Shown here: piece after piece, positions 11,208-52,072 of the stretch
Layout: every line of letters starts with the position of its first letter
How positions within the stretch are numbered: the stretch's first letter is position 1
Origin: Companilactobacillus ginsenosidimutans
GTDB taxonomy: Bacteria > Bacillota > Bacilli > Lactobacillales > Lactobacillaceae
Direction: 5' to 3'
Assembly: GCF_001050475.1 (NCBI RefSeq)
Contig: NZ_CP012034.1
Span: 1,612,001-1,676,000, forward strand
Length of the DNA stretch: 64,000 bases
The notes under the pieces: model-generated
What the model was told of the DNA's origin: nothing
What the model saw: the letters and a program-made list of their open reading frames with translations, nothing else
Database searches by the model: none
Made by a program: the position numbers and the translations under genes

Positions 11208-11981
11208 ATGAAAATGATGTTTCAAACAGAAAGAGAAGATTTAGCTAACACAGTTAGAAAAATGTTCGATAGAAAAGACACAAATATTGCTGGAGGAAAC
11301 ATGTCAGTGAAAGTCTTCGATAAAGAAGACCATCCCTACATTCTATTAACTCCCACATTTATGTCAGAAACATTCTTCGCAGAATTGTCACCAGCTCAAA
11401 TCCTAGTAATTGATGGAATTACATACGAAAAAATTGACGGTGTCGGCGACGTAACACGTGAAGTAAACATGCACGAAAGAGCCTATACAGCTCACCCAGG
11501 CATCAGATGTGTTTACCACTCACACGCACCAAAAGCTATGTTCTGGGCAACATCAGGACTAGACATGCCAAACGTAACCGAAGTAACCAGAGAACTAGGA
11601 GACATCAAATGCCTACCATATGCTCCAGCATGTTCACAAGCTTTAGCAGATACAGTTTATGACGAACTAATCAAAATCGGTGACAAAGCAATGGAAAACA
11701 TCTTCCTATTGAACAGCCACGGAATACTAATCACAGCAACAGACCTACACGTAGCAACAAGAGTAATGGAAACCGTAGAATGGAATGCCGAAATAGCCTA
11801 TCAACAACAAGTATTCATCAAATTAGGCCTACTACCCGATTACCAATCATGTGGCGCCAACTACAAAGAACCAGTACCAGAAGGATCATTACCAGCAATC
11901 CCACTACCAGAAATCAACAAAGTAGCTTATGAGCACCCATTCCCAGAAAATATTGCTCGTCCAAATGAGGAGGTGTACTAA
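11208..11981 (+). CDS. fucA: Class II aldolase, probable L-fuculose-phosphate aldolase
   Basis: Cleaves L-fuculose 1-phosphate to dihydroxyacetone phosphate and L-lactaldehyde. 257 residues of the class II aldolase/adducin family: NIAGGNMSVKV near residue 27, zinc ligands in YHSHAPKAMF around residue 105 and the third histidine in NSHGILITA. It is about 40 residues longer than E. coli FucA, so another sugar-phosphate aldolase of this family is possible; the divergent fuc operon favours fuculose. From about 11500 onward the codons are strikingly A- or C-ended compared with neighbours. AAGGAG lies 11 bases before ATG. Confidence 0.82.
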   Translation: MKMMFQTEREDLANTVRKMFDRKDTNIAGGNMSVKVFDKEDHPYILLTPTFMSETFFAELSPAQILVIDGITYEKIDGVGDVTREVNMHERAYTAHPGIRCVYHSHAPKAMFWATSGLDMPNVTEVTRELGDIKCLPYAPACSQALADTVYDELIKIGDKAMENIFLLNSHGILITATDLHVATRVMETVEWNAEIAYQQQVFIKLGLLPDYQSCGANYKEPVPEGSLPAIPLPEINKVAYEHPFPENIARPNEEVY

Positions 11982-12380: not shown

Positions 12381-12537
12381 ATTCCGGGGGAAAATCGATT
12401 CGGCCTCAGCCGCCACATTTCACTTTGCCGGCGAAGTCGGCTTAGTGAAAGGGTCGCTTTGGAGACATTTCGTACTTTGAAATGGCTTCAAACGTCCCGG
12501 CAGCGTTCCAGGCCAAAGAATCGATTTCCCCCGGAAT
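12381..12537 (+). repeat. Structured palindromic element, copy 1
   Basis: 157-base GC-rich imperfect palindrome. The outer stem pairs 12381-12405 with 12511-12537 (ATTCCGGGGGAAA with TTTCCCCCGGAAT). Inside are hairpin B at 12418-12450 (7 bp, symmetric TT/TT internal loop, short GC stem) and the 35-nt hairpin A at 12458-12492 (TTTGGAG, A, CATTTC, 7-nt loop, GAAATG, G, CTTCAAA). The flanking sequences CTCAGCCG and CAGCGTTCCAG recur in other copies. No coding capacity. Compare 18185, 36970, 43730 and 50955. Confidence 0.8.
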
Positions 12538-12618
12538 CGGGTCTCCCCTCCACACCAAAACAAATTTTATTTTTCCATAAATGATTTTTATACAAGAAAA
12601 CTATTGACTACAATAACA

Positions 12619-12632: not shown

Positions 12633-12740
12633 AAAATTAAAATATTATAATCTTTCTAATAAAAACTTAATTTGGACTATTTATTTACTCCATTTTGTTT
12701 TAGAATGATGGTACATGTAACTTTGAAAGGAGAATTTTTA

Positions 12741-14435
12741 ATGTCGCAATCATTACAACCAATTGATACCCCTGCGTTTTATATGAACCCAGATGCAAAC
12801 GTATCAGTTATTAACTATAGCGAAGGCTATATTCAGGACATTTTTCAACTAATCAACAGTAAGGCACTCTTAGGTCTAGTAAAACTATTCCTAGAAGAGC
12901 AGAAACAAAATGCAGCAAATGATGTTGTACAAGTAACACCAGAAGATTACGTTGCTATTCTAAAGGCCATCGTTATCGATGAAACAGATAAATATGACCA
13001 ATATGATAAGGATAAAATTCTTAAAAGTGTTGAGGATCTATATTCATTCTATAGAAACTTCTTCCGTGTATCTCTAGTTAACAAACATAATAATGCGGTT
13101 ATCAAAGGTAACTTCATGGATATTGATAATCATTTCAATGAAGTAGTTATCGATCTATATCGTGCCGTTGAAGAGAAACTTCAAGGTTTCCAAAACCACA
13201 CATACCGTCAAATCAACGCTGGTACTAATGCCAGTGCAATTGTTCAATCAATCGAATGGCCTGCTCCTGCTGGCTACGAAAAGCTACAAAACATTCGTTT
13301 TATTGATACCTTAATGCTTCGTCCACCAATGATGATGCACACAAAGAGTAACAAACGTGAAGGTGTCTTTGATGCCGTTCCTGATAATCCAATTAAGAAG
13401 TTTGATGGTTCACGTAGCGAGTGGTTCTGTTTCCCAGCTAAAATTGGTGAAAGTCTTGCTTACATTTACTTCCAACGTGACTACTTTGTAAGTGGGATCG
13501 CTCTTGGTAACTTGTTCGACATCGCCAGTGAAGAAGAAGTTAAAGGTAAGAAACCAGACGAGATCTTGCTATTTGGTCTACCTGAAACTGAAGGCGACGT
13601 ATGTCACTACTTCCATGATGAAGCTAATGATATTTGGGTCGGTGAAGTTCCATACAACGATAAGACTACTTACTTTGGTTACATGAAGAAGATGTGTTTA
13701 ACATTGCACAACCTTCACATGATTTATGAAAATAGACTTCCAATCCATGGTTCAATGGTTAAGATTACATTCTCAAATGGAAAAGTTAAGACAGTTGTCT
13801 TCTTCGGTGATTCAGGTGCCGGAAAGTCAGAATCTATTGAAGCTTTACAAGAAATTGCTGATGAAAAAATTGTTGATATCGAAACAATTTTTGATGACAT
13901 GGGTAGTTTTGCATTCGATAAGAATGGTGAAGTTTACGCACAAGGAACTGAAACTGGTGCCTTCGTACGTTTGGATGATTTAAGTAGTGCTGTTGCCTTC
14001 AACAACATGGATCGTGGTATCTACTTGAACCCTGAGTTGAAGAACGCTCGTGTTATCTTGCCTGCTAACTCATACAAACGTGTCGTAATGCATCACAGCA
14101 TCGACATGTGGGTTTACGCCAACAACTACGATTCAGATATTGGTTTGCACCAATTCCCTGATGAAGAAGCCGCAAAAGCAACATTCATTGCCGGTAAGAG
14201 AAAGGCACTTGGAACAACTGATGAAGTTGGTATGAGTACAACATTCTTTGCTAACCCATTTGGCCCTGTTCAAGAAGAAGCAAAAACACGTCCAATTATC
14301 GATAAAGTTTTCAATCAACTTTATAAAGACAAGATTTATGTTGGTGAAATTTATACTCACCTTGGTAACGACAAGTCTAAGGACAGTTTAAAAGAATCAG
14401 CTAAAGAATTGCTCGATCAATTAATGAACAACTAA
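12741..14435 (+). CDS. PEP carboxykinase/HprK-fold P-loop protein
   Basis: 564-residue cytoplasmic protein. A kinase-type P-loop GDSGAGKSE lies at about residues 356-364, preceded by KTVVFF and followed by the acidic strand VDIETIFDDMGSF. This loop form is typical of HPr kinase/phosphorylase, whereas ATP-type PEPCK usually has GLSGTGKTT. The two enzymes share a fold, and long lactobacillar proteins of this type are, as I recall, commonly annotated as phosphoenolpyruvate carboxykinase. Function is therefore a family-level inference. The start ATG 12741 follows AAAGGAG; an upstream ATG at 12672 has no site. Monocistronic, ended by the hairpin at 14448. Confidence 0.6.
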   Translation: MSQSLQPIDTPAFYMNPDANVSVINYSEGYIQDIFQLINSKALLGLVKLFLEEQKQNAANDVVQVTPEDYVAILKAIVIDETDKYDQYDKDKILKSVEDLYSFYRNFFRVSLVNKHNNAVIKGNFMDIDNHFNEVVIDLYRAVEEKLQGFQNHTYRQINAGTNASAIVQSIEWPAPAGYEKLQNIRFIDTLMLRPPMMMHTKSNKREGVFDAVPDNPIKKFDGSRSEWFCFPAKIGESLAYIYFQRDYFVSGIALGNLFDIASEEEVKGKKPDEILLFGLPETEGDVCHYFHDEANDIWVGEVPYNDKTTYFGYMKKMCLTLHNLHMIYENRLPIHGSMVKITFSNGKVKTVVFFGDSGAGKSESIEALQEIADEKIVDIETIFDDMGSFAFDKNGEVYAQGTETGAFVRLDDLSSAVAFNNMDRGIYLNPELKNARVILPANSYKRVVMHHSIDMWVYANNYDSDIGLHQFPDEEAAKATFIAGKRKALGTTDEVGMSTTFFANPFGPVQEEAKTRPIIDKVFNQLYKDKIYVGEIYTHLGNDKSKDSLKESAKELLDQLMNN

Positions 14436-18184: not shown

Positions 18185-18344
18185 GGAGCTGAAAATATTC
18201 TTGGCTGTGAAGGTGGTGTTATAGCTTTAGCCATTACAGCACCGGGCGAGTTTGGAGACTTACCGATTTATGGTAAGGCTTCAAACCGAGGTCCGAGACC
18301 TTGGCTCGGGCCGGTCCGCACAGCCATGAATATTTCTCAGCTCC
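18185..18344 (+). repeat. Structured palindromic element, copy 2
   Basis: 160-base imperfect palindrome between tex and the GH3 gene. The outer stem pairs GGAGCTGA with TCAGCTCC, then AATATTC with GAATATT, and GGCTGTG with CACAGCC. Hairpin B is at 18212-18243. Hairpin A is at 18251-18285: TTTGGAG, A, CTTACC, 7-nt loop, GGTAAG, G, CTTCAAA, the same 35-nt geometry and A/G mismatch as copy 1 but with a different inner stem. A 7-base linker GGGCGAG separates B and A. The rest of the 485-base gap shows no gene. Confidence 0.8.
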
Positions 18345-18397: not shown

Positions 18398-21256
18398 CTA
18401 CCAGTTCAAACCATTAGCAGACATGATAGAATCCACGTCAGATGGAGTTAATGACTTAGCCTGTAAGTTATTCTTCTGAGCAAATGTATAAGCCTGCATA
18501 ATAGTACCCAATACACGTGCAGCAGATTTTTGCAAATCACCCAATGCCAACTTGTTACCGTCAGCAGAATTTGTGGCAGCAATTTGCAATGCTTCTTGAG
18601 TACCACCAGGCATGATCAGATCATTACCAGCGCGCATCAATGAAGCAGGATCTGACAAACTCTTTAAGTTATACCAGTCTGTCATAACAGTACCTTTGAA
18701 ACCCCATTCGCCACGTAGAATGTTAGTTAACAAGTCGTAGTTTGCGGCATTGTAAGTACCATTTACGAGATTATATGATGACATTACGTACTCAGGTTGT
18801 GCATCTTTGATGACAGTTTCAAAGCCTTTAAGATAAATTTCTCTCATGGCTTGTTCACCGATTTCGTCATCCATTGTTTGACGCTTTGTTTCTTGGTTAT
18901 TAGCGAAGAAGTGTTTAATAGTTGTACCGACGCCAGGATTTGATTGAACACCCTTTGTCATAGCGGTTGCACTAACTCCGGCAATAAGTGGATCTTCTGA
19001 ATAGTATTCGAAGTTACGTCCATTTAATGGATCTCTGTGGATATTCATACCAGGAGCTAACCAAGTATCTACTCCGAACTCTTTCATTTCTTTACCAACG
19101 GCATCTCCGACTTGATACATCATTTCGGGATCCCATGCTTGAGCAAGCAAAGTTCCAATAGGCCATGCTGTGGCGTATTGATATCTTGTTTGACCATTAG
19201 TAGTTGTTTCTGGTGTTAAACGAAGTCCAGCAGGACCATCGGAATTAACTGAAACTGGAACTCCTCTATTAATTAGTTGATCTGTTGTTTGACCAGCTGC
19301 GCCAGGAACTTGTGTTGCAGCACTACCAATAATTGATAATACTTTTGATGAATCAGAATCACTACTGTCGCCGTTTAGCATAGTATCAACACCACCACTC
19401 ATCATGTTGTATGTTGAAGCTAATTGTTTGGCAGTCATTACTAAATTACCATTAACGATTTGTGAAAGTTGTTTTGTTGAAAGACTAGCAATGAATTGAT
19501 CCATTGTAATCTGGCCATCATAAACATCTTTCAAGCTTGAACCGCTAATTCCGTTGATTGAAAGAATGGTTTGATTCAAATCAGTTGTTGGCAATTTTGT
19601 AGTTGTGTTCTTGTTAACGATTGTTGTTACAGCGTTCTTGTCATAAGTTGAAGCATTATTTCCACGAACCATGTTCAATGAATTTGCGTTCAATTGGATA
19701 ACAGGAGCGTTACTTAATTCAGCAGCTTGCTTTGCAGGAACAAATGTATTGTCGCCGCCATGCAAAACTGTTGGATCAACAGCTGGAGGCATTTCTGATG
19801 AAAGTTGTTCTGTAGTTACCTTTGAAGATAAATTCAAAACGGCCGCAACATCAGTATTACGTGAGCTATCACCAACTCTGACAATATATTGACCAGGGTC
19901 GAGAATATAGCTACTTGTAGCTGTATCATAACTAGCCATGTTGTAAAGTGGGAATGACATTGTCAAAGTTTGGCTTTGACCAGGTGCCAACTCATCTGTC
20001 TTAGCATATGCAGCCAAGTTTTGGAAAGCTTTATCAACAGAGCCTTTTGGTGCTGAATAATATTCTTGGACAACTTGACGTCCAGAATACTTGTCACCAG
20101 TATTTGTAACAGTAACTTTAGTTACTAAGTTGTTACCTTTTACAGCAACAGAATCAGTCTTAGTAGCAAATGTTGTATACGAAAGTCCATAACCGAATTC
20201 ATAATGCGGCGTTACGTTGTATGTATCGAAGTAACGATATCCAACATAAATACCTTCGTTATAAGCTTCTTTATCAGAGTTACCGTCATTGTCAGCAAAT
20301 GTTGCTGAACTAGGATAATCTGAATAGTTATTGGCCCATGTATCAACTAATTTACCAGAAGGTGTAACCTTGCCACTCAAAATATCAGCAACAGCGGTAC
20401 CAGTATTTTGTCCAGCTTGGGAAACTAGTAATACACTATCCAATCCAGGAATTTGGTCGATAAATTTAGTATCGATTTGACCACCAACATTTAGCAATAA
20501 AATACTTTGCTTGTAGTTAGCAGCAACATTCTTGATATTATTGAATTCAGCATTGGTAATCTCGTAATCGCCTTTAGTATCAGTACGATCTGTACCTTCA
20601 CCAGCATTACGTGATAGAACGTAAATACCTACATCAGCAGGATCATTATCAAATGTAGCTTGAGAAATTTGTTTATCGGCATAATTAAATGTTCCCATCA
20701 TAGGATGAGCTTTTGTAAAAGCAGCATTTTGCTCATCATAATCTTTAGCAGTAGCAGTTAAATAGTCGTCAGTTGTGACATCATAGCCAGCATCTTTCAA
20801 GCCATCCCAAATGTTAATCACTTTTCTAGGATTGACATTACCTGAACCAGTTCCTCCTTTCACCGTTCCATAAGCACCTGCACCATACAATGCAACCGTA
20901 TCGTCAGTTGAAATTGGTAAAGTTTGATTCTTGTTTTGCAACAGAACCATACCATCTTCAGCGGCGGAAGTTGATAATTGCGAATTTGCAATTTCAGTTT
21001 CATTTGGATCAGGACTAGTTGTTGCTGAATCGTCAGATGAAGTTGTCTTGTTAGCATTTACCTCGTTGCTAGCTGACGCACTAGTTGAAACAGCTTCAGA
21101 AGTCTGTGCATTTGCTTGAGAAACATTAGTTTCTGAAACTTCAGAGTCAGAAGTTGTAGCGGCCGAAGCATTACCTAAGTATGTGTAGAAACCTACAAAT
21201 AGTAACGCAATAATGCTCGTCAAAACTACAACAATCCTCTTCTGTTTTTTATCCAT
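18398..21256 (-). CDS. Secreted glycoside hydrolase family 3, permuted domain order
   Basis: 952-residue beta-glucosidase-like enzyme with an N-terminal signal or membrane anchor (KKQKRIVVVLTSIIALLFVGF) and a Ser/Thr/Ala-rich linker to about residue 90. The domain order is reversed relative to BglX: the GH3 C-terminal domain comes first (EDGMVLLQNKNQTLP, GGTGSGNVNP), then a fibronectin-III-like domain (residues about 360-480), then the catalytic (beta/alpha)8 domain (DGPAGLRL, LAPGMNIHRDP, TIKHFFANNQE). The nucleophile should be Asp860 in VMTDWYN. Some rumen-bacterial GH3 enzymes share this order. It releases glucose or other sugars from exopolymers or plant glycosides. Expression is controlled by the cre sites at 21279-21306. 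Confidence 0.88.
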   Translation of the reverse strand: MDKKQKRIVVVLTSIIALLFVGFYTYLGNASAATTSDSEVSETNVSQANAQTSEAVSTSASASNEVNANKTTSSDDSATTSPDPNETEIANSQLSTSAAEDGMVLLQNKNQTLPISTDDTVALYGAGAYGTVKGGTGSGNVNPRKVINIWDGLKDAGYDVTTDDYLTATAKDYDEQNAAFTKAHPMMGTFNYADKQISQATFDNDPADVGIYVLSRNAGEGTDRTDTKGDYEITNAEFNNIKNVAANYKQSILLLNVGGQIDTKFIDQIPGLDSVLLVSQAGQNTGTAVADILSGKVTPSGKLVDTWANNYSDYPSSATFADNDGNSDKEAYNEGIYVGYRYFDTYNVTPHYEFGYGLSYTTFATKTDSVAVKGNNLVTKVTVTNTGDKYSGRQVVQEYYSAPKGSVDKAFQNLAAYAKTDELAPGQSQTLTMSFPLYNMASYDTATSSYILDPGQYIVRVGDSSRNTDVAAVLNLSSKVTTEQLSSEMPPAVDPTVLHGGDNTFVPAKQAAELSNAPVIQLNANSLNMVRGNNASTYDKNAVTTIVNKNTTTKLPTTDLNQTILSINGISGSSLKDVYDGQITMDQFIASLSTKQLSQIVNGNLVMTAKQLASTYNMMSGGVDTMLNGDSSDSDSSKVLSIIGSAATQVPGAAGQTTDQLINRGVPVSVNSDGPAGLRLTPETTTNGQTRYQYATAWPIGTLLAQAWDPEMMYQVGDAVGKEMKEFGVDTWLAPGMNIHRDPLNGRNFEYYSEDPLIAGVSATAMTKGVQSNPGVGTTIKHFFANNQETKRQTMDDEIGEQAMREIYLKGFETVIKDAQPEYVMSSYNLVNGTYNAANYDLLTNILRGEWGFKGTVMTDWYNLKSLSDPASLMRAGNDLIMPGGTQEALQIAATNSADGNKLALGDLQKSAARVLGTIMQAYTFAQKNNLQAKSLTPSDVDSIMSANGLNW

Positions 21257-22722: not shown

Positions 22723-23757
22723 TTAACCATTGTAAATAACATCATTAGCGTTTACATATTCGTTAGTCGAAACACGATAGAATGTGTCACCAGTGTTGTT
22801 ATTAATTCTAACAATATCTGTGAACCAGTCTGTATTTGGTGCTAATGAACGGCTTTGTAGTTGGCCAACTTGGTCATAAAGTGATGTTAAATCCTTAGTA
22901 GTTACAGTACTGTTGATTTCGTTGTTTGTGTAGTTAGCATTTGAAACAACGGGAGTACTTGTTTCTTCATCAGCATTGTCTGGATCAGGAATCAAATCAC
23001 TCTTACCAGTAACTAAACCATAAGCACCACCGACAGCGTTATCAACTAAGTCTAATGGTTGAAGAACCTTCATAACGCCTGAAGCCAAAGGTCCAACTAG
23101 TGGAATTTGACCAACTCCATCGATAACTTTGTTTTGAATGTTTTTAACGAAGTTTCCACCTTTGTTAGTAGTTGATTTAATCAAACCAGTAGCACCGGCA
23201 ACAACGTTTCCAATGATTGGAGTTTGCTCAGCATTCTTGATTATAGTATCAACAGAATCAACATCAGTTGTTGGGTTTGATGTGCCAGCAGGTGCTGTTG
23301 TTGTGTCATATGCATTAGTTGCAGAAGCTTCAACATTAGAATCAGCAGTTGCAGTTGCTTGTGTATTAGCAACTGTAGCGGAGTCCGATTCAGCAACGGC
23401 GGCTGTTGGTGCAGTTGCAGCTGTTCCGGCAGTTGCAGCTGTTCCAGCTGTTGGTGCAGTAGCGGCTGTTCCGGCAGTTGCGGCAGTTCCTGCTGTGGCG
23501 TTTGTAGTTGCAGCGGCATCGTCAGTAGTTGCAGAAGTTGTATCTGTAGTAGCTGGTGTTAATTCAGCAGCTGGAATAACAACTTGTGAAGCATCTGCAG
23601 TTGTAGCAGTAGCATCTGTAGCAGCAACTTGGGCAGTAGCAGGTGTAGTGTCTGTGTCAGTAGTAGCGGCATCAGCGTTACCTTGAACAGCAGCAACACC
23701 TGTTAAAGTCATAGCAATAGCAAATGTTGATGATAATAGAACTTTCTTATATGTCAT
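22723..23757 (-). CDS. Secreted Ala/Thr-rich surface protein with SLAP-like C-terminus
   Basis: 344 residues. It has a signal peptide (residues 1-32, cleavage near ADAAT), a long Ala/Thr low-complexity region to about residue 165 including AGTAATAPT-type repeats, and a glycine-rich hydrophobic middle (IIGNVVAGATGLI, VGPLASGVMKVL). The C-terminal module contains FYRVSTNEYVNANDVIYNG. The same RVSTNE module ends the 638-residue protein at 30582 and resembles the SLAP/S-layer-associated cell wall-binding domain. It probably binds the cell wall non-covalently. There is no LPXTG. Function unknown. Confidence 0.78.
   Translation of the reverse strand: MTYKKVLLSSTFAIAMTLTGVAAVQGNADAATTDTDTTPATAQVAATDATATTADASQVVIPAAELTPATTDTTSATTDDAAATTNATAGTAATAGTAATAPTAGTAATAGTAATAPTAAVAESDSATVANTQATATADSNVEASATNAYDTTTAPAGTSNPTTDVDSVDTIIKNAEQTPIIGNVVAGATGLIKSTTNKGGNFVKNIQNKVIDGVGQIPLVGPLASGVMKVLQPLDLVDNAVGGAYGLVTGKSDLIPDPDNADEETSTPVVSNANYTNNEINSTVTTKDLTSLYDQVGQLQSRSLAPNTDWFTDIVRINNNTGDTFYRVSTNEYVNANDVIYNG
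23402..23491. repeat. Two tandem 45-bp coding repeats
   Basis: Copies at 23402-23446 and 23447-23491 start GCTGTTGGTGCAGT and differ at a few positions. Each is built from shorter 9-15 bp Ala/Thr/Pro-encoding units, so the array could change length by slippage in frame. Confidence 0.85.
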
Positions 23758-35271: not shown

Positions 35272-35504
35272 TTGTATATCCCTCCATCTGATATATCTAT
35301 CTTATGAAAAATAGTGGGAATAGTCGTTGGATTCATATTACAAGAACTTACACTTTTGTAAGCCAACCTCACTTAGCAATAATTTGATATTGTTTTATAT
35401 TCAAATTCAATTGATTTATCAGTAAAAAAGTTGAACAATCTAATATATACTATTAAGGTTGTAAAAATTTTTGTATATAGGGGTGTTTCGCTTTGGGGGA
35501 AAAA

Positions 35505-36947
35505 ATGCCAGAACTTGACTCTAAAAAGTCATACATTAGCTGGCCTGTCATAGCTTTGATGGACTTTGTTACCGTAATTGGTTTTGATGATATTATTTAT
35601 AACTTTCAAAACCAAGGTCTCGGTATCGTTACTACTTGGATTTTAATGCTATTTTTATTCGTTGTTCCTTATGAAATGATGGTTGGACATATGGGTTCAG
35701 TCTTCAGTCACGAGGGTGGCGGTATGTCATCATGGGTTCGTGGTACTAGTGGAAATGTCTGGGGATACATTTGTGCCTGGACTTACTGGGTTTCAGGACT
35801 TCCATATATCGTCGATGTTGCCAACTCAATGTTAATTTCATTCGGTTGGTTGATTCACGGAAACAATACGATGTCGAATACGATGAGTAATAGTATGTTT
35901 GCGTTATTAACAGCCGCAATCTTCACATTATTCATTTTCATTCAACATCATTTAAAGAACTCACTTCAATGGTTAGGAATCATTGGTGGTGGTGCAATGT
36001 TCATCGTTACTGTTTTGTATGTAATTATGACTGTAGTTTACCTTGGACAAGGAAACGCACCGCACACTCAACCTTTCACGCTAAAATCATTTATTCCTAA
36101 ATTTGATTTGCACTACTTATCAACTTTCGGATTAGTAATTTTTGCCATGAATGGCTCTGAATTTGCTGCACCATACGTTACGGAAATGAAAAATGGTAAA
36201 CGTGATTTTCCAAAAGCTATGTGGATGTTAGCAATTATGACCGGATTCTTGACAGTCTTAGGATCATTCTCATTGGGTGTGTTTTTCAACGCCCATCACT
36301 TGCCTAATGACTTGAAAATGAATGGTTCATACTACGCCTTCCAAGCCATGGGAAATGACTTTGGAATGGGTCGATTCTTCCTATATGTATTCGCAATTAC
36401 GCAAGCTATCTACATGATGGCCCAACTTGCGGTGCTAATTGATGCCGGAACGCGTATGTTCTTGTCTGACACGGCAAAATCTTATTTGCCTAAGGGTCTA
36501 ACTAAGACGGATAAACGTGGTTTGCCTATCAATGGATATTGGCTCACTACCGGTATTTGTACAGTTATTATGGTGCTTAGTGCTACTTTGCCAAATATGA
36601 ATTCAATCTTTAATCAACTGTTGAATTTGAATGGTATTGTTTCGCCTTACACTACTTGTTTCTTATTTAGTTCATTCATTATTGTTCGTTTGAAACCTAA
36701 GAAGTTCCCTTCTGATTTCACTTATATTAAGAATCAGAAGTGGGCTGTTATTGTTGGTGCTTGGTGTTTCTTGATCACTTTTGGTGCTGCTACTCTTGGG
36801 ATTTTGCCTGTTGATGAGGCTTATGGTACTGGTACTTGGTATCATGTTTTGGCGCTCAATATTATTGAACCGTTATTGATGATTGCTGTCGGGGTTATCT
36901 TACCGTTGATAGCTCGAGCAGAACGCCGCAAAGACAACCTCGCTTAG
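35505..36947 (+). CDS. APC-family amino acid permease
   Basis: 480-residue membrane protein with about 12 hydrophobic segments. SWPVIALMDFVTVIGFDDIIYNF, GGGMSSWVRGTSGNVWGYICAWTYW and MNGSEFAAPYVTEMKNGKRDFPKA are typical of the glutamate:GABA antiporter/basic amino acid branch of the APC superfamily. The substrate is unknown. Start ATG 35505 has GGGGG six bases upstream; TTG 35493 overlaps this site. Monocistronic; a structured element (36970-37130) and a terminator-like hairpin (37287) follow. From about 36700 the codons shift toward T-ended forms. Confidence 0.82.
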   Translation: MPELDSKKSYISWPVIALMDFVTVIGFDDIIYNFQNQGLGIVTTWILMLFLFVVPYEMMVGHMGSVFSHEGGGMSSWVRGTSGNVWGYICAWTYWVSGLPYIVDVANSMLISFGWLIHGNNTMSNTMSNSMFALLTAAIFTLFIFIQHHLKNSLQWLGIIGGGAMFIVTVLYVIMTVVYLGQGNAPHTQPFTLKSFIPKFDLHYLSTFGLVIFAMNGSEFAAPYVTEMKNGKRDFPKAMWMLAIMTGFLTVLGSFSLGVFFNAHHLPNDLKMNGSYYAFQAMGNDFGMGRFFLYVFAITQAIYMMAQLAVLIDAGTRMFLSDTAKSYLPKGLTKTDKRGLPINGYWLTTGICTVIMVLSATLPNMNSIFNQLLNLNGIVSPYTTCFLFSSFIIVRLKPKKFPSDFTYIKNQKWAVIVGAWCFLITFGAATLGILPVDEAYGTGTWYHVLALNIIEPLLMIAVGVILPLIARAERRKDNLA

Positions 36948-36969
36948 TTTTGTTGGGAGGTTCACTTTC

Positions 36970-37130
36970 GCCCTGCGGTCAGGTTCCTGGGGGCCGTGGT
37001 CGCTGTGAACACGAATTCGAGCTTTTCCAAGTTCGGGAAAATCTCGAATCTCGGTTTTTATGTAAGCCTGCCCTTTGGCAGGCAAACATAAATCTCACGG
37101 CTTGGGCCCCCAGGAACCTGACCTCCGGGC
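36970..37130 (-). repeat. Structured palindromic element, copy 3 (reverse orientation)
   Basis: 161-base palindrome. The outer stem GGTCAGGTTCCTGGGGGCC (36977-36995) pairs perfectly with 37105-37123, and GCCC with GGGC outside it. Hairpin A is at 37015-37049 (7 bp, 1x1, 6 bp, 7-nt loop; 35 nt) and hairpin B at 37057-37092 (TTTATGT, AA/AA internal loop, GCCTGCC stem). Read on the minus strand, order B then A, 7-base linker AACCGAG and 3' CACAGCG match copies 1 and 4. The rest of the 463-base gap (37131-37286) shows nothing definite. Confidence 0.82.
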
Positions 37131-37286
37131 TTGTACTCCAATAAAACTTACTTGGTTGTGGGTTTTTGCTTGCTCCTCCGCGTAATTCCTACGATAAGAT
37201 TGGACAGACTGTAATACTGTTTTCGTCTGATCGTTAGTCTGCACAGATCGATATTTTGAATTGTAAAATCTAAAGTCAAGACACTA

Positions 37287-37327
37287 AAATAGCGCATTCC
37301 AAAAATTGGAATGCGCTATTTTTTTGT
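37287..37327 (+). terminator. Terminator upstream of ogt
   Basis: AATAGCGCATTCC / GGAATGCGCTATT with a 7-base loop and seven T. It ends plus-strand transcription from the permease region. Confidence 0.9.
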
Positions 37328-37410
37328 ATTTATTGATATTAAAAAGCCAGATTGTGATACTTCTTGATTCTTTTGTGTTGTATTATCGTATCAGTAAAGG
37401 GGGCGTTTCT

Positions 37411-48949: not shown

Positions 48950-49999
48950 TTGGAAAAAATACTAGACGTAAAAAACTTACATGTAGACTTTTCAACCTAT
49001 AACGGTACAGTCAAAGCTATTCGTGGCGTTGATTTTCATCTAAATGACGGTGAGACTCTTGCTATTGTTGGTGAGTCCGGATCAGGTAAATCAGTTACAG
49101 TTCGTTCAGTTTTACAATTATTAGCTTCAAACGCCAAGATTAGCCAAGGAGAAATTCTCTATCACGGCGAGGACCTATTAAAAAAGTCTGAAAAGGAAAT
49201 GGACAACCTTCGTGGAAATAAAATTTCGATGATATTCCAAGACCCTATGACTTCTCTAGATCCAACAATGACAATTGGTAAGCAAGTTGCAGAACCACTT
49301 TTGATTCACAATGAAATGTCAAAAGCCGACGCAATGAAACGTGCCGAAGAAGTTTTGAGATTAGTTGGTATTCCTAATCCTAAAGCTAGAATGAAAGACT
49401 ACCCTCACCAATTTTCAGGTGGTCAACGTCAGAGAATTGTTATCGCAATCGCTATCGTTGATTATCCAGAAATTTTAATTGCTGATGAACCAACCACAGC
49501 GCTTGATGTTACTGTTCAAGCTCAAATCATCGACTTGTTGCGTGAGCTTCAATTAAAAATTGGTACATCCATCATCTTTATCACCCATGACCTTGGTGTT
49601 GTGGCTGGTATTGCTGACCGTGTAGCAGTTATGTATGCTGGTAAGTTTGTTGAATACGGAAGTGTTGACGAAGTCTTCTACGATCCACAACATCCCTATA
49701 CTTGGGGACTTTTGGATTCAATGCCTACCCTCGACACAAGTACACAAAATCGTTTGAACTCAATTCCCGGAACACCACCTAACTTATTGCATCCACCAGT
49801 TGGTGACGCATTTGCACCTAGAAATGCCTATGCCATGGAAATTGACACTGAAGAGCAACCACCATTCTTCAAAGTTTCAAAAACGCATTATGCTGCAACT
49901 TGGTTGTTGCACCCTGATGCACCAAAAGTTACACCACCTGAATCAATCCAAAAGCGTTTTGAAAAATATCAATCAATGATTGGAGGAGACGTTAAATAA
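48950..49999 (+). CDS. oppD: Oligopeptide ABC transporter ATP-binding protein
   Basis: 349-residue ATPase: Walker A GESGSGKS (residues 41-48), signature [15 protein letters not shown], Walker B ILIADEPTTALDV, and the C-terminal oligopeptide domain with PGTPPNLLHPPVGDAFAPRNAYAM. The usual cluster of cysteines seen in many OppD C-termini is absent. TTG start at 48950 with AAGGAG eight bases before. Its stop overlaps the oppF ATG. Confidence 0.94.
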   Translation: MEKILDVKNLHVDFSTYNGTVKAIRGVDFHLNDGETLAIVGESGSGKSVTVRSVLQLLASNAKISQGEILYHGEDLLKKSEKEMDNLRGNKISMIFQDPMTSLDPTMTIGKQVAEPLLIHNEMSKADAMKRAEEVLRLVGIPNPKARMKDYPHQFSGGQRQRIVIAIAIVDYPEILIADEPTTALDVTVQAQIIDLLRELQLKIGTSIIFITHDLGVVAGIADRVAVMYAGKFVEYGSVDEVFYDPQHPYTWGLLDSMPTLDTSTQNRLNSIPGTPPNLLHPPVGDAFAPRNAYAMEIDTEEQPPFFKVSKTHYAATWLLHPDAPKVTPPESIQKRFEKYQSMIGGDVK

Positions 50000-50928
50000 T
50001 GGCTGATGAAAGAGAACCTATCGTTCAAGTTAGAAACCTCAAACAATATTTCAACATCGGTAAACCTAATGAAGTTAAAGCTGTCGATGACGTCTCCTTT
50101 GATATTTATAAAGGCGAAACCTTTGGTCTAGTTGGTGAATCCGGTTCTGGTAAGAGTACAACTGGACGTAGTATTATCCGCTTGTACAACCCAACTAGTG
50201 GAGAAATTTTGTTCAAAGGTAAAGATATTAGCAAGATCAAAAATCACAGCAGCCAGATGAAAGATTTCCGCCGCGACATGCAAATGATTTTCCAAGACCC
50301 TTACGCATCTTTGAACCCTAGAATGAAAGTTAAAGACATTATCGCTGAAGGTTTGGACATTCACGGTATTGCTAAAAATGATGATGAGAGAACACAAAGA
50401 GTTGAAGAGTTACTCGACATGGTTCATTTGAATCCTGAACATATGACTAGATACCCTTATGAGTTTTCTGGTGGTCAGCGTCAAAGAATTGGTATCGCCA
50501 GAGCTTTAGCTGTTGATCCCGAGTTCATCATCGCTGATGAACCAATCTCAGCACTTGATGTGTCTATCCAAGCTCAAGTTGTTAACTTGATGCAAGATAT
50601 CCAAAAGGAACGCGGTTTGACTTATATGTTTATCGCCCATGATTTGTCGATGGTTAAATATATTAGTGACCGTATTGCTGTTATGTACAGCGGCAAAATC
50701 GTTGAGTTGGCTGACTCGGATGAGATTTACAACCATCCACTTCACGCTTACACTCAGAGTCTTTTATCGGCTATTCCTGTTCCTGATCCTGAGATCGAAA
50801 AGACTCGTCGTCGTATCGATTTTGATCATTCTAAGCATTTCAATGATGCTCAGCATTTCCAAGAGGTTCTGCCTGGGCATTGGTTGTATTGTGACGATGC
50901 TACTGCAGCATCGTATAAGAACAACTAA
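49999..50928 (+). CDS. oppF: Oligopeptide ABC transporter ATP-binding protein
   Basis: 309-residue ATPase with Walker [10 protein letters not shown], signature [16 protein letters not shown], Walker [14 protein letters not shown], and the C-terminal peptide-transporter extension ending GHWLYCDD. Pairs with OppD. Last gene of the operon; a structured element (50955) and a terminator (51167) follow. The 604-base gap to thiW holds these plus the TPP riboswitch. Confidence 0.94.
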
Positions 50929-50954
50929 ATTTTAGGTTATTGCGGTTCACTGCC

Positions 50955-51114
50955 GTTCTCCGGGTAGGTTCGGCGGTGGCTGGAACGCTGTGAGCCGATT
51001 TTGAGGTTTTTCACAAACCGAAAAATCTCAAAACTCGACTTTGTTGTAAACGAGGCCTTTGCCTCGTCAACAACAACGCCACGGCTGAGCCACCGGCGAA
51101 CCTACCCTGCGAAC
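50955..51114 (-). repeat. Structured palindromic element, copy 4 (reverse orientation)
   Basis: 160-base palindrome. The outer stem GGGTAGGTTCG.CGGTGGCT (50962-50981) pairs with 51088-51107 with one mismatch, plus GTTC/GAAC outside. Hairpin A is at 50999-51033 (TTTTGAG, 1x1, TTTTTC, 7-nt loop, GAAAAA, 1x1, CTCAAAA; 35 nt) and hairpin B at 51039-51075 (TTGTTGT ... ACGAGGC stem ... ACAACAA). On the minus strand it shows CTCAGCCGTGGCG, linker AGTCGAG and CACAGCGTTCCAG, matching copies 1 and 3. Confidence 0.82.
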
Positions 51115-51166
51115 TAGTCAACAGCAAACTTCTAAAATTAGCAGTTCTTAAACCTAACCACAGTTC

Positions 51167-51212
51167 AATAGCCACATTCCGACTAATTCAGTTGGAGTGT
51201 GGCTATTTTTTT
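51167..51212 (+). terminator. Terminator after the opp operon
   Basis: AATAGCCACATTCC / GGAGTGTGGCTATT with a 13-base loop and T-run. Confidence 0.85.
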
Positions 51213-51344
51213 ATTTCACTTCTTTTTTTATTTCCCTAATTTAACAATCTTATTAATAATTACTGTATTCAATTTATTGTATTTCATAAATTATCATGAG
51301 ATATACGTTAAACATGATATACTGATATCACAATTGAATACGAA

Positions 51345-51417
51345 ACATTTGGGGTGCACAAACGCTGAGATTATACCCATTGAACCTGATACGGCTAACA
51401 CCGGCGCAGGAAAATGT
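51345..51417 (+). promoter_or_regulatory. TPP riboswitch (thi box)
   Basis: Conserved parts in order: P1 arm ACATTT, GGGGTGC, GCTGAGA, ATACCC, GAACCTGAT, GGCTAACACCGGCG, AGGAAAATGT closing P1. These are the invariant thiamine pyrophosphate aptamer blocks. It controls thiW-thiM-thiE through the terminator at 51441. Confidence 0.96.
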
Positions 51418-51440
51418 GAAATGATTTTTTATGTTGATTT

Positions 51441-51532: not shown

Positions 51533-52072
51533 ATGGTTAATTCTTCAAAGACTCAAAAGCTTACTATCCTAGCGATGATGATTGCTTTGGATGTTGTTCT
51601 TTCCCCTATTTTCCGAATTGAGGGTATGGCTCCTATGTCTAGTGTGATCAATGTCACTGGAGCTGTTTTGATGGGTCCATCTTATGTTTCCGTTATGGCT
51701 TTAGTCTGTGCTGTTATTCGGATGACTATGATGGGGATTCCACCTCTCGCTTTGACTGGTGCTTTCTTTGGCGCACTGTTAGCTGGTCTTGGTTATCGTT
51801 ATACTCATAAGATCTGGGGTGCTATGTTGGGCGAAATTATTGGGACTGGTTTAATTGGATCTCTCACCTCTTTCCCGGTTATGGTTTGGTTTACTGGTAA
51901 TAGCAATGGTATGTATTGGTTCTTATATACTCCTAGATTCTTTGGTGGAGCTATTTCTGGATCAATTATTGCCTTTATCGTTTTGTACAAGTTAAAGGAC
52001 ACTCGTCCCTTTTTGCGAGCTCAATCTTTATTCCAAGGAGTAATAAAGAATGGAAAATTACAGCCAAAATGA
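51533..52072 (+). CDS. thiW: ECF transporter S component ThiW (thiazole/thiamine precursor uptake)
   Basis: 179-residue membrane protein with five to six hydrophobic segments. KLTILAMMIALDVVLSPIFRIEGMAPMSSVINVTGAVLMGP and LTGAFFGALLAGLGYRYT are typical of ThiW, the predicted thiazole-specific substrate-binding subunit of energy-coupling factor transporters. The shared ECF AAT module is encoded elsewhere. Position between a TPP riboswitch and thiM/thiE supports the role. It overlaps thiM by 23 bp. AAGGAGTTTCACTT precedes ATG. Confidence 0.88.
   Translation: MVNSSKTQKLTILAMMIALDVVLSPIFRIEGMAPMSSVINVTGAVLMGPSYVSVMALVCAVIRMTMMGIPPLALTGAFFGALLAGLGYRYTHKIWGAMLGEIIGTGLIGSLTSFPVMVWFTGNSNGMYWFLYTPRFFGGAISGSIIAFIVLYKLKDTRPFLRAQSLFQGVIKNGKLQPK

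Follow-up and report, generated by a model that had tools for sequence, protein, structure and literature searches.

REPs are extragenic palindromes of 20-40 bp, most of them in GTAG- or CGTC-tagged families according to the passages cited (PMC3733652). They form hairpins, often lie in inverted pairs and act as hot spots for insertion sequences, as the cited part of the source describes them (PMC1525189). The sponge RHE and the Allomyces double-hairpin elements are dispersed multi-hairpin sequences that are thought to be mobile, and in the sections cited the RHE has conserved stems with substitutions in the loops (PMC2800124). Streptococcal BOX and RUP and other bacterial stem-loop families are described, in the portions cited here, as multicopy, intergenic and foldable (PMC3049150, PMC2267715). 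Our data indicate that lactobacilli carry a real, abundant and apparently unnamed family of Y-shaped palindromes. We consider it probable that the family is a non-autonomous dispersed DNA element, built around a palindrome of about 150-175 bp that folds into a Y with a three-way junction. BOX, RUP and the stem-loop families appear to differ from the Y-palindromes in size and architecture. A Y-palindrome is also unlike REPs in that it is about 170 bp long, contains two inner hairpins and, in Companilactobacillus ginsenosidimutans, has the ends GTTCACTGCCG and ACTAG. Compared with the RHE, as far as the cited sections describe it, the Y-palindromes show the reverse arrangement, with variable stems and a conserved set of loops and junction bases.

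The window, that is, the whole stretch of 64,000 nucleotides of C. ginsenosidimutans DNA that was analysed, contains four intergenic elements, e1 to e4, at the positions where a sequence-only reading had placed them (Table 1). That reading had assigned one architecture with invariant geometry to all four. The common fold is indeed present in e1, e3 and e4, which consist of an outer stem, hairpin B (7 bp, an internal loop and 6-8 bp), a linker, hairpin A (7 bp, a 1x1 A.G or A.C mismatch, 6-7 bp and a loop) and a conserved junction (CAGCCG..CAGCG or AGCCG..CAGCG). Close to the foot of their outer stem, e3 and e4 have a 3x3 loop rich in purines, which is absent from e1. The claim fails for e2, a variant that keeps hairpin A but has a different hairpin B and an additional third hairpin, and lacks CAGCGTTCCAG. 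The sequence of e3 also had to be corrected, since it reads CACAGCGACCACGG rather than CACAGCGTTCCAG. The observation that stems differ between copies with pairing kept was confirmed for the window elements. Because e3 and e4 were among the 18 copies from which our covariance model was built, only e1 of these three is an independent model hit. The model recognises e2 over 42 nt only, within hairpin A. The class with three internal hairpins comprises e2 and a second example at L055:1757-1946, and because the model detects this type poorly, the Y-palindrome superfamily is probably larger than counted.

Table 1. Y-palindromes of the window with neighbouring genes and terminator-like hairpins (the strand of an element is that of the covariance model).
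Feature	Position	Strand	Model score	Remark
Aldolase_II-domain gene	11208-11981	+		Flanks e1
Element e1	12381-12546	+	87.7 bits	
ORF	12672-14435	+		Flanks e1; PEPCK match with a score under the curated cut-off
Element e2	18185-18344	+	24.3 bits (18247-18288, hairpin A)	Variant form, three internal hairpins; 3' end about 50 nt from the stop of the glycosyl hydrolase gene
Glycosyl hydrolase family 3 gene	18398-21256	-		
Amino-acid permease gene	35493-36947	+		
Element e3	36960-37131	-	196.1 bits	Member of the model alignment; conserved GTTCACT end 12 nt past the permease gene stop
Intrinsic-terminator-like hairpin and T-run	37278-37330	+		Downstream of e3
Oligopeptide-type ABC ATPase gene	49999-50928	+		
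Element e4	50945-51115	-	176.5 bits	Member of the model alignment; conserved GTTCACT end 16 nt past the ATPase gene stop
Intrinsic-terminator-like hairpin	51170-51214 (approximate ends)	+		Downstream of e4

A blastn search with e4 returned 36 matches in the C. ginsenosidimutans genome, and the covariance model of 18 own-genome copies, e3 and e4 included, returned 125 at E <=0.1. These correspond to at least 86 distinct sites in the 2.59-Mb genome (E 1.8e-11 or better), which is a lower bound because 150 of 475 candidates were scored; beyond this threshold opposite-strand echoes mix with weaker sites. Within the genus Companilactobacillus the model matched 24 of 25 genomes, and the 16 other genomes of the order that were searched alongside had no match. 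In the family, with 13 candidates scored for each genome, 37 genomes out of 201 had matches, and these represent 7 of 40 genera. In the order, with 9 candidates scored for each, 11 of 295 genomes were positive, every one of them in the same family. A 20-base pattern hit Companilactobacillus, Schleiferilactobacillus, Levilactobacillus, Lacticaseibacillus, Loigolactobacillus and a Limosilactobacillus bin, and the model matched in all six genera, with the Limosilactobacillus match truncated by the end of the stretch. The model search that had been proposed for further copies has thus yielded many more, both in the own genome and in other genera. Hits of the 20-base pattern outside the lactobacilli (Frankia, Hymenobacter and proteobacterial bins) and two hits in viral_contigs had no model match and were discarded as chance. 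A plasmid or phage origin was also set aside, on the weak ground that two plasmid queries and one phage query, three queries only, gave no match.

The copies appear unevenly distributed and are variable in form. Six of the at least 86 own sites, as found with 150 of 475 candidates scored, lie between 170 and 890 kb (28% of the chromosome), where about 24 would be expected if the spacing were even. Tandem arrays of Y-palindromes are present in other genera, and near-identical neighbouring copies lie head to tail in L298, L299 and L115. A module composed of a GTTGGC-GTA-GCCAAC-like hairpin and a second stem recurs in L030, L032, L036 and L184, where it stands in place of both inner hairpins or of a portion of hairpin A, within outer stems that are otherwise ordinary. 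At L243:1574-1662 a related but distinct multi-hairpin structure, with a weak match of 28.6 bits, lies on the opposite strand beside a normal copy.

Covariation in the family exceeds both shuffled and slid controls, in the own genome and in other genomes, as the sequence-only reading had suggested from the four window elements. In the 18 own copies 97.0% of cells are paired, and changes on both sides occur in 37 of 60 pairs compared with 17.3 after shuffling; none of 500 shuffles reached the observed both-side changes. The number of cells with both-side changes is 136, against 35.3 in shuffles and 8-17 when partners were slid by 1-3 columns, and the covariation score is 0.380 against 0.120 in shuffles. 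The 73 distinct copies from other genomes have 95.7% of cells paired, 1265 both-side-change cells (356 shuffled, 127-252 slid) and a covariation score of 0.720 (0.190 shuffled); these counts lean toward structure because the alignment, which includes closely related copies, was fitted to the model. Both-side changes in 58 of 60 pairs of these copies are a weak measure on their own, since shuffles already give 50.4. Information content is higher in unpaired columns (1.04 bits) than in paired columns (0.79 bits). A structure of 60 pairs in which nearly every pair covaries resembles a textbook functional RNA at first sight. The pattern of wobble, the reassortment of stems and the marks of insertion point instead to mobile DNA. 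The family cautions that covariation by itself is no proof of a functional RNA.

Wobble pairs are rare in the Y-palindromes. In an orientation-neutral count of mismatches with at least four Watson-Crick pairs on each side, G.T occurred 7 times and A.C 9 times in the own copies (n=80, 599 paired positions), and 5 and 2 times, respectively, in the copies from others (n=64, 358 paired positions). The same count found 27 A.G and 10 T.T mismatches in the own copies and 33 and 37 in the others. With three flanking pairs, which admit more chance matches than four, G.T and A.C numbered 56 and 39 in the own copies and 39 and 40 in the others. On the model strand, model-fitted alignments, which favour G.T, gave 101 G.T and 44 A.C in the best 80 of 116 rows, and 29 and 5 in 15 rows from relatives. 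Terminators at the same loci, used as a control, showed a mild asymmetry only (37 G.T and 20 A.C with three flanking pairs, 14 and 8 with four), and nine tRNAs gave 13 and 0, a control biased by tRNA calling. The structured-RNA option of the sequence-only reading therefore receives no clear support from the strand asymmetry of wobble. Little wobble and no clear strand fit pairing at the DNA level, short of proof, and we infer that pairing is maintained there. The stems change as Watson-Crick units, and the junction bases and fixed mismatches persist.

Near-strict Watson-Crick arms with no clear strand bias, together with whole-stem differences between copies, would also be produced by passive palindromes, in which complementarity arises only through template-switch copying between the arms and the fold is not recognised by anything. 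We regard this as improbable, because the A.G and T.T mismatches inside the stems are retained from one species and genus to the next, as are the junction bases, although such copying should erase mismatches.

The Y-palindromes are placed close to gene ends. When read on the strand opposite to that of the model, a typical own element begins with GTTCACTGCCG and ends near ACTAG. Gene context was analysed with ORFs of at least 90 aa for 80 own copies and 64 copies of relatives. The 80 were taken from 116 model matches in the own-genome loci, after removal of duplicates on the opposite strand and of most partial matches that were short or weak, two of which (29 and 51.5 bits) were retained. Sites of the own genome retrieved only with flanks of about 300 bp were excluded unless retrieved again. 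Both neighbouring genes lie on the same strand as the element in 22 own copies and on the opposite strand in 19, and the genes are convergent in 31 and divergent in 8. For the relatives these numbers are 21, 16, 15 and 1, with 11 copies lacking a called neighbour.

It is possible, although unlikely in our judgement, that the element is a structured 3'-UTR RNA. The transcript would continue past the stop codon and through the element, in the orientation opposite to the model strand, and the fold would shield the mRNA end or feed processing ahead of an intrinsic terminator. The strong covariation is consistent with this, as is the tight spacing to stop codons: in 38 of 53 own cases no more than 41 nt separate the GTTCACT end from the stop codon of a gene on the same strand, with an overlap of a few bases in three of them, and in 49 of 50 the distance from the ACTAG end to a convergent stop is 109 nt or more, a gap often occupied by a paired element. 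A simple scan placed a terminator in the 220 nt that follow the element in 40 of 80 own copies and in the 150 nt that precede it in 11 of 80, and in a subset of elements a T-run with GGTGGG lies about 17-27 nt beyond the element. However, a same-strand gene precedes only 53 of the 80 own copies, a terminator already stands before the element in those 11, and wobble is rare without bias to the strand in question. On the opposite strand the scan found terminators after the element in 30 of 80 copies and before it in 1, so many of the terminators are bidirectional. Sense and antisense orientation in tandem-gene contexts are similar in number, 22 to 19 in the own genome and 21 to 16 in relatives, and a consistent sense orientation is therefore not shown. 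A purely sense 3'-UTR element was our initial reading, and it was weakened by cleaner gene calls. The transcript-end role that the sequence-only reading had offered has some support from the nearness to stop codons, but the orientation in tandem contexts does not add to it.

In the subset with the T-run, GTTCACT recurs at about +36 to +42, and this further occurrence of the motif, about 38 nt downstream, may mark the start of a lost tandem neighbour. The pattern TTTGGTG..GTTCACT occurs at 10 places; of five examined, four are at elements and one is in an apparent coding gene. Many copies form inverted pairs with their ACTAG ends inward, at spacings of 60-346 bp among at least 16 pairs (11 own and 5 from relatives). 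Complementary flanks were found in 16 of 80 own copies that beat all 20 of their own mismatched controls, against 3.8 expected, and these flanks may be remnants of inverted ends or of old terminator stems.

Movement is demonstrated in one species, C. suantsaicola, by target duplications. Four of its copies are carried by units of 323 bp whose inverted ends measure about 22 bp, and each unit is inserted in the hairpin B apex of another Y-palindrome copy with an 8-bp target duplication (GCTTTAGC, GCTAAAGC or GATTCATC). A fifth copy has the duplication CTCCATAT and lies outside any element. Inverted ends with an exact 8-bp duplication were thus present in 5 of 28 C. suantsaicola rows, which represent 27 copies with one entered twice (L225 and L289:1324), compared with 0.05 expected from mismatched flanks. 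All five were among 20 copies selected by model score, and none of the 8 rows that came from end-pattern loci had the signature. Because the units are near-identical and two of the hosts are alike, four independent landings are not proven. The signature was found in none of the 80 own copies, none of 30 in the nearest species and none of 64 others, which include further C. suantsaicola copies. Other direct repeats around the copies showed no excess, and the own copies yielded no clean empty site.

Stem types reassort in C. suantsaicola, where 20 copies show 17 combinations, in a count that takes single substitutions as types and has the hairpin B register one base off. In the other species movement is likely, judging from dispersal and turnover. 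The nearest species has 73 model matches, a few of which are opposite-strand echoes, and 5 of 30 loci share site and orientation with an own copy. At these shared sites the element pairs rank 11, 29, 5, 24 and 20 of 80 in similarity. Shared sites with dissimilar elements indicate site reuse or stem replacement, and turnover is fast in either case. This difference between species at shared sites also argues against a 3'-UTR RNA.

Fifteen loci orthologous to the e3 gene were searched with the model, and four were inspected by eye beside our own. One (G240) has an element at the stop codon with quite different stems, one (G008) has a weaker match of 39.0 bits about 55 nt past the stop and behind a terminator, one (G016) has an apparently degraded element farther downstream, and one (G007) has no element after the gene. 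In the remaining loci the model found nothing after the gene apart from two weak matches (E 0.04 and 0.06). Among 24 loci orthologous to the e4 gene that were searched with the model, an element lies behind a terminator in G240 (53.4 bits, with a replacement hairpin module) and in G007 (83.3 bits), and in G002 one is located some 380 nt past the gene.

A mobile palindrome is the best supported of the options named in the sequence-only reading, because the family is dispersed and multicopy, its members turn over between species, and inverted ends with 8-bp duplications occur in C. suantsaicola; the absence of this signature from all 80 own copies counts against it. The Y-palindromes resemble MITEs, which are non-coding, short and multicopy, and five C. 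suantsaicola copies have inverted ends and 8-bp duplications as MITEs do. They are unlike MITEs in that the 80 own copies lack the signature, the family has a conserved three-way fold with drifting stems, and no autonomous partner was found for them in one draft genome.

The end sequence (GG..) and the 8-bp duplication are reminiscent of the ISL3 family, and a DDE-type transposase would move the units in trans. In the draft genome of C. suantsaicola, one end pattern with up to 3 mismatches occurs at 18 places, which comprise four pairs at a distance of 323 bp and a number of single ends, and no pair is spaced at the length of an insertion sequence. We also considered REP-like spread through a Y1 HUH transposase that works on hairpins in single-stranded DNA. 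An oversized repeat of this kind would agree with the extragenic position, the many copies, the inverted pairs, the hairpins with fixed mismatches and the use of the element as a target by other insertions; the hot-spot role of REPs, in the cited part of the source, parallels the nested insertions in Y-palindromes (PMC1525189). However, the Y1 gene (PF01797) is present in 18 of 36 genus genomes with no relation to copy number by inspection. Four genomes (G007, G012, G014 and G022) have 57-68 element matches and no PF01797, whereas G006 has one PF01797 match and zero element matches. The Y-palindromes do not match the distribution of the Y1 gene, and their size and ends are unlike those of REPs. 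The REP/RAYT partner was therefore rejected, and we consider an oversized REP-like repeat very improbable.

In a mobile DNA element, folded or cruciform DNA might be recognised through the junction bases and fixed mismatches, and the palindrome would be kept for this reason. Stem letters would be free to drift, and arm-to-arm copying by template switching may partly keep the stems complementary, beside selection. Four of the five duplication-bearing insertions sit in the hairpin B apex of another copy, which suggests that resident copies could act as landing pads, so that incoming copies would insert into older ones, in intergenic DNA where they do no harm. We therefore offer, tentatively and as a rather unlikely extension, a self-targeting palindrome: the folded Y DNA would be recognised, its drifting stems would be held complementary at the level of DNA, resident hairpin apices would serve as landing sites, and nested, paired and tandem clusters would build up behind stop codons. 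If this is true, it would represent a class of DNA element defined by shape and junction and not by sequence. The Y-palindromes are an abundant natural system for the study of long-palindrome upkeep in bacteria and of the co-evolution of stem arms, and they suit the question of how mobile DNA reaches innocuous positions at the ends of genes. In lactobacilli they mark dozens of sites per genome that apparently had no name.

The sequence-only reading had not recognised the family, and this agrees with our searches. No Rfam family (release 15) matched the elements of the window, and in 8 loci searched at E up to 1 the two miRNA-type matches were far under the curated scores and outside the elements, so that a known Rfam RNA was rejected for the window and these loci. 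We recognised no description of this repeat in the open-access literature searched, which does not prove that none exists. The only match in the window at the curated score is a TPP riboswitch (51340-51429), just past e4 and its terminator and upstream of a ThiW-type thiamine-precursor transporter gene (51533-52072). Elsewhere in the window, positions 23384-23650 contain nine-base periodic repeats that overlap an ORF (22723-23757, minus strand).
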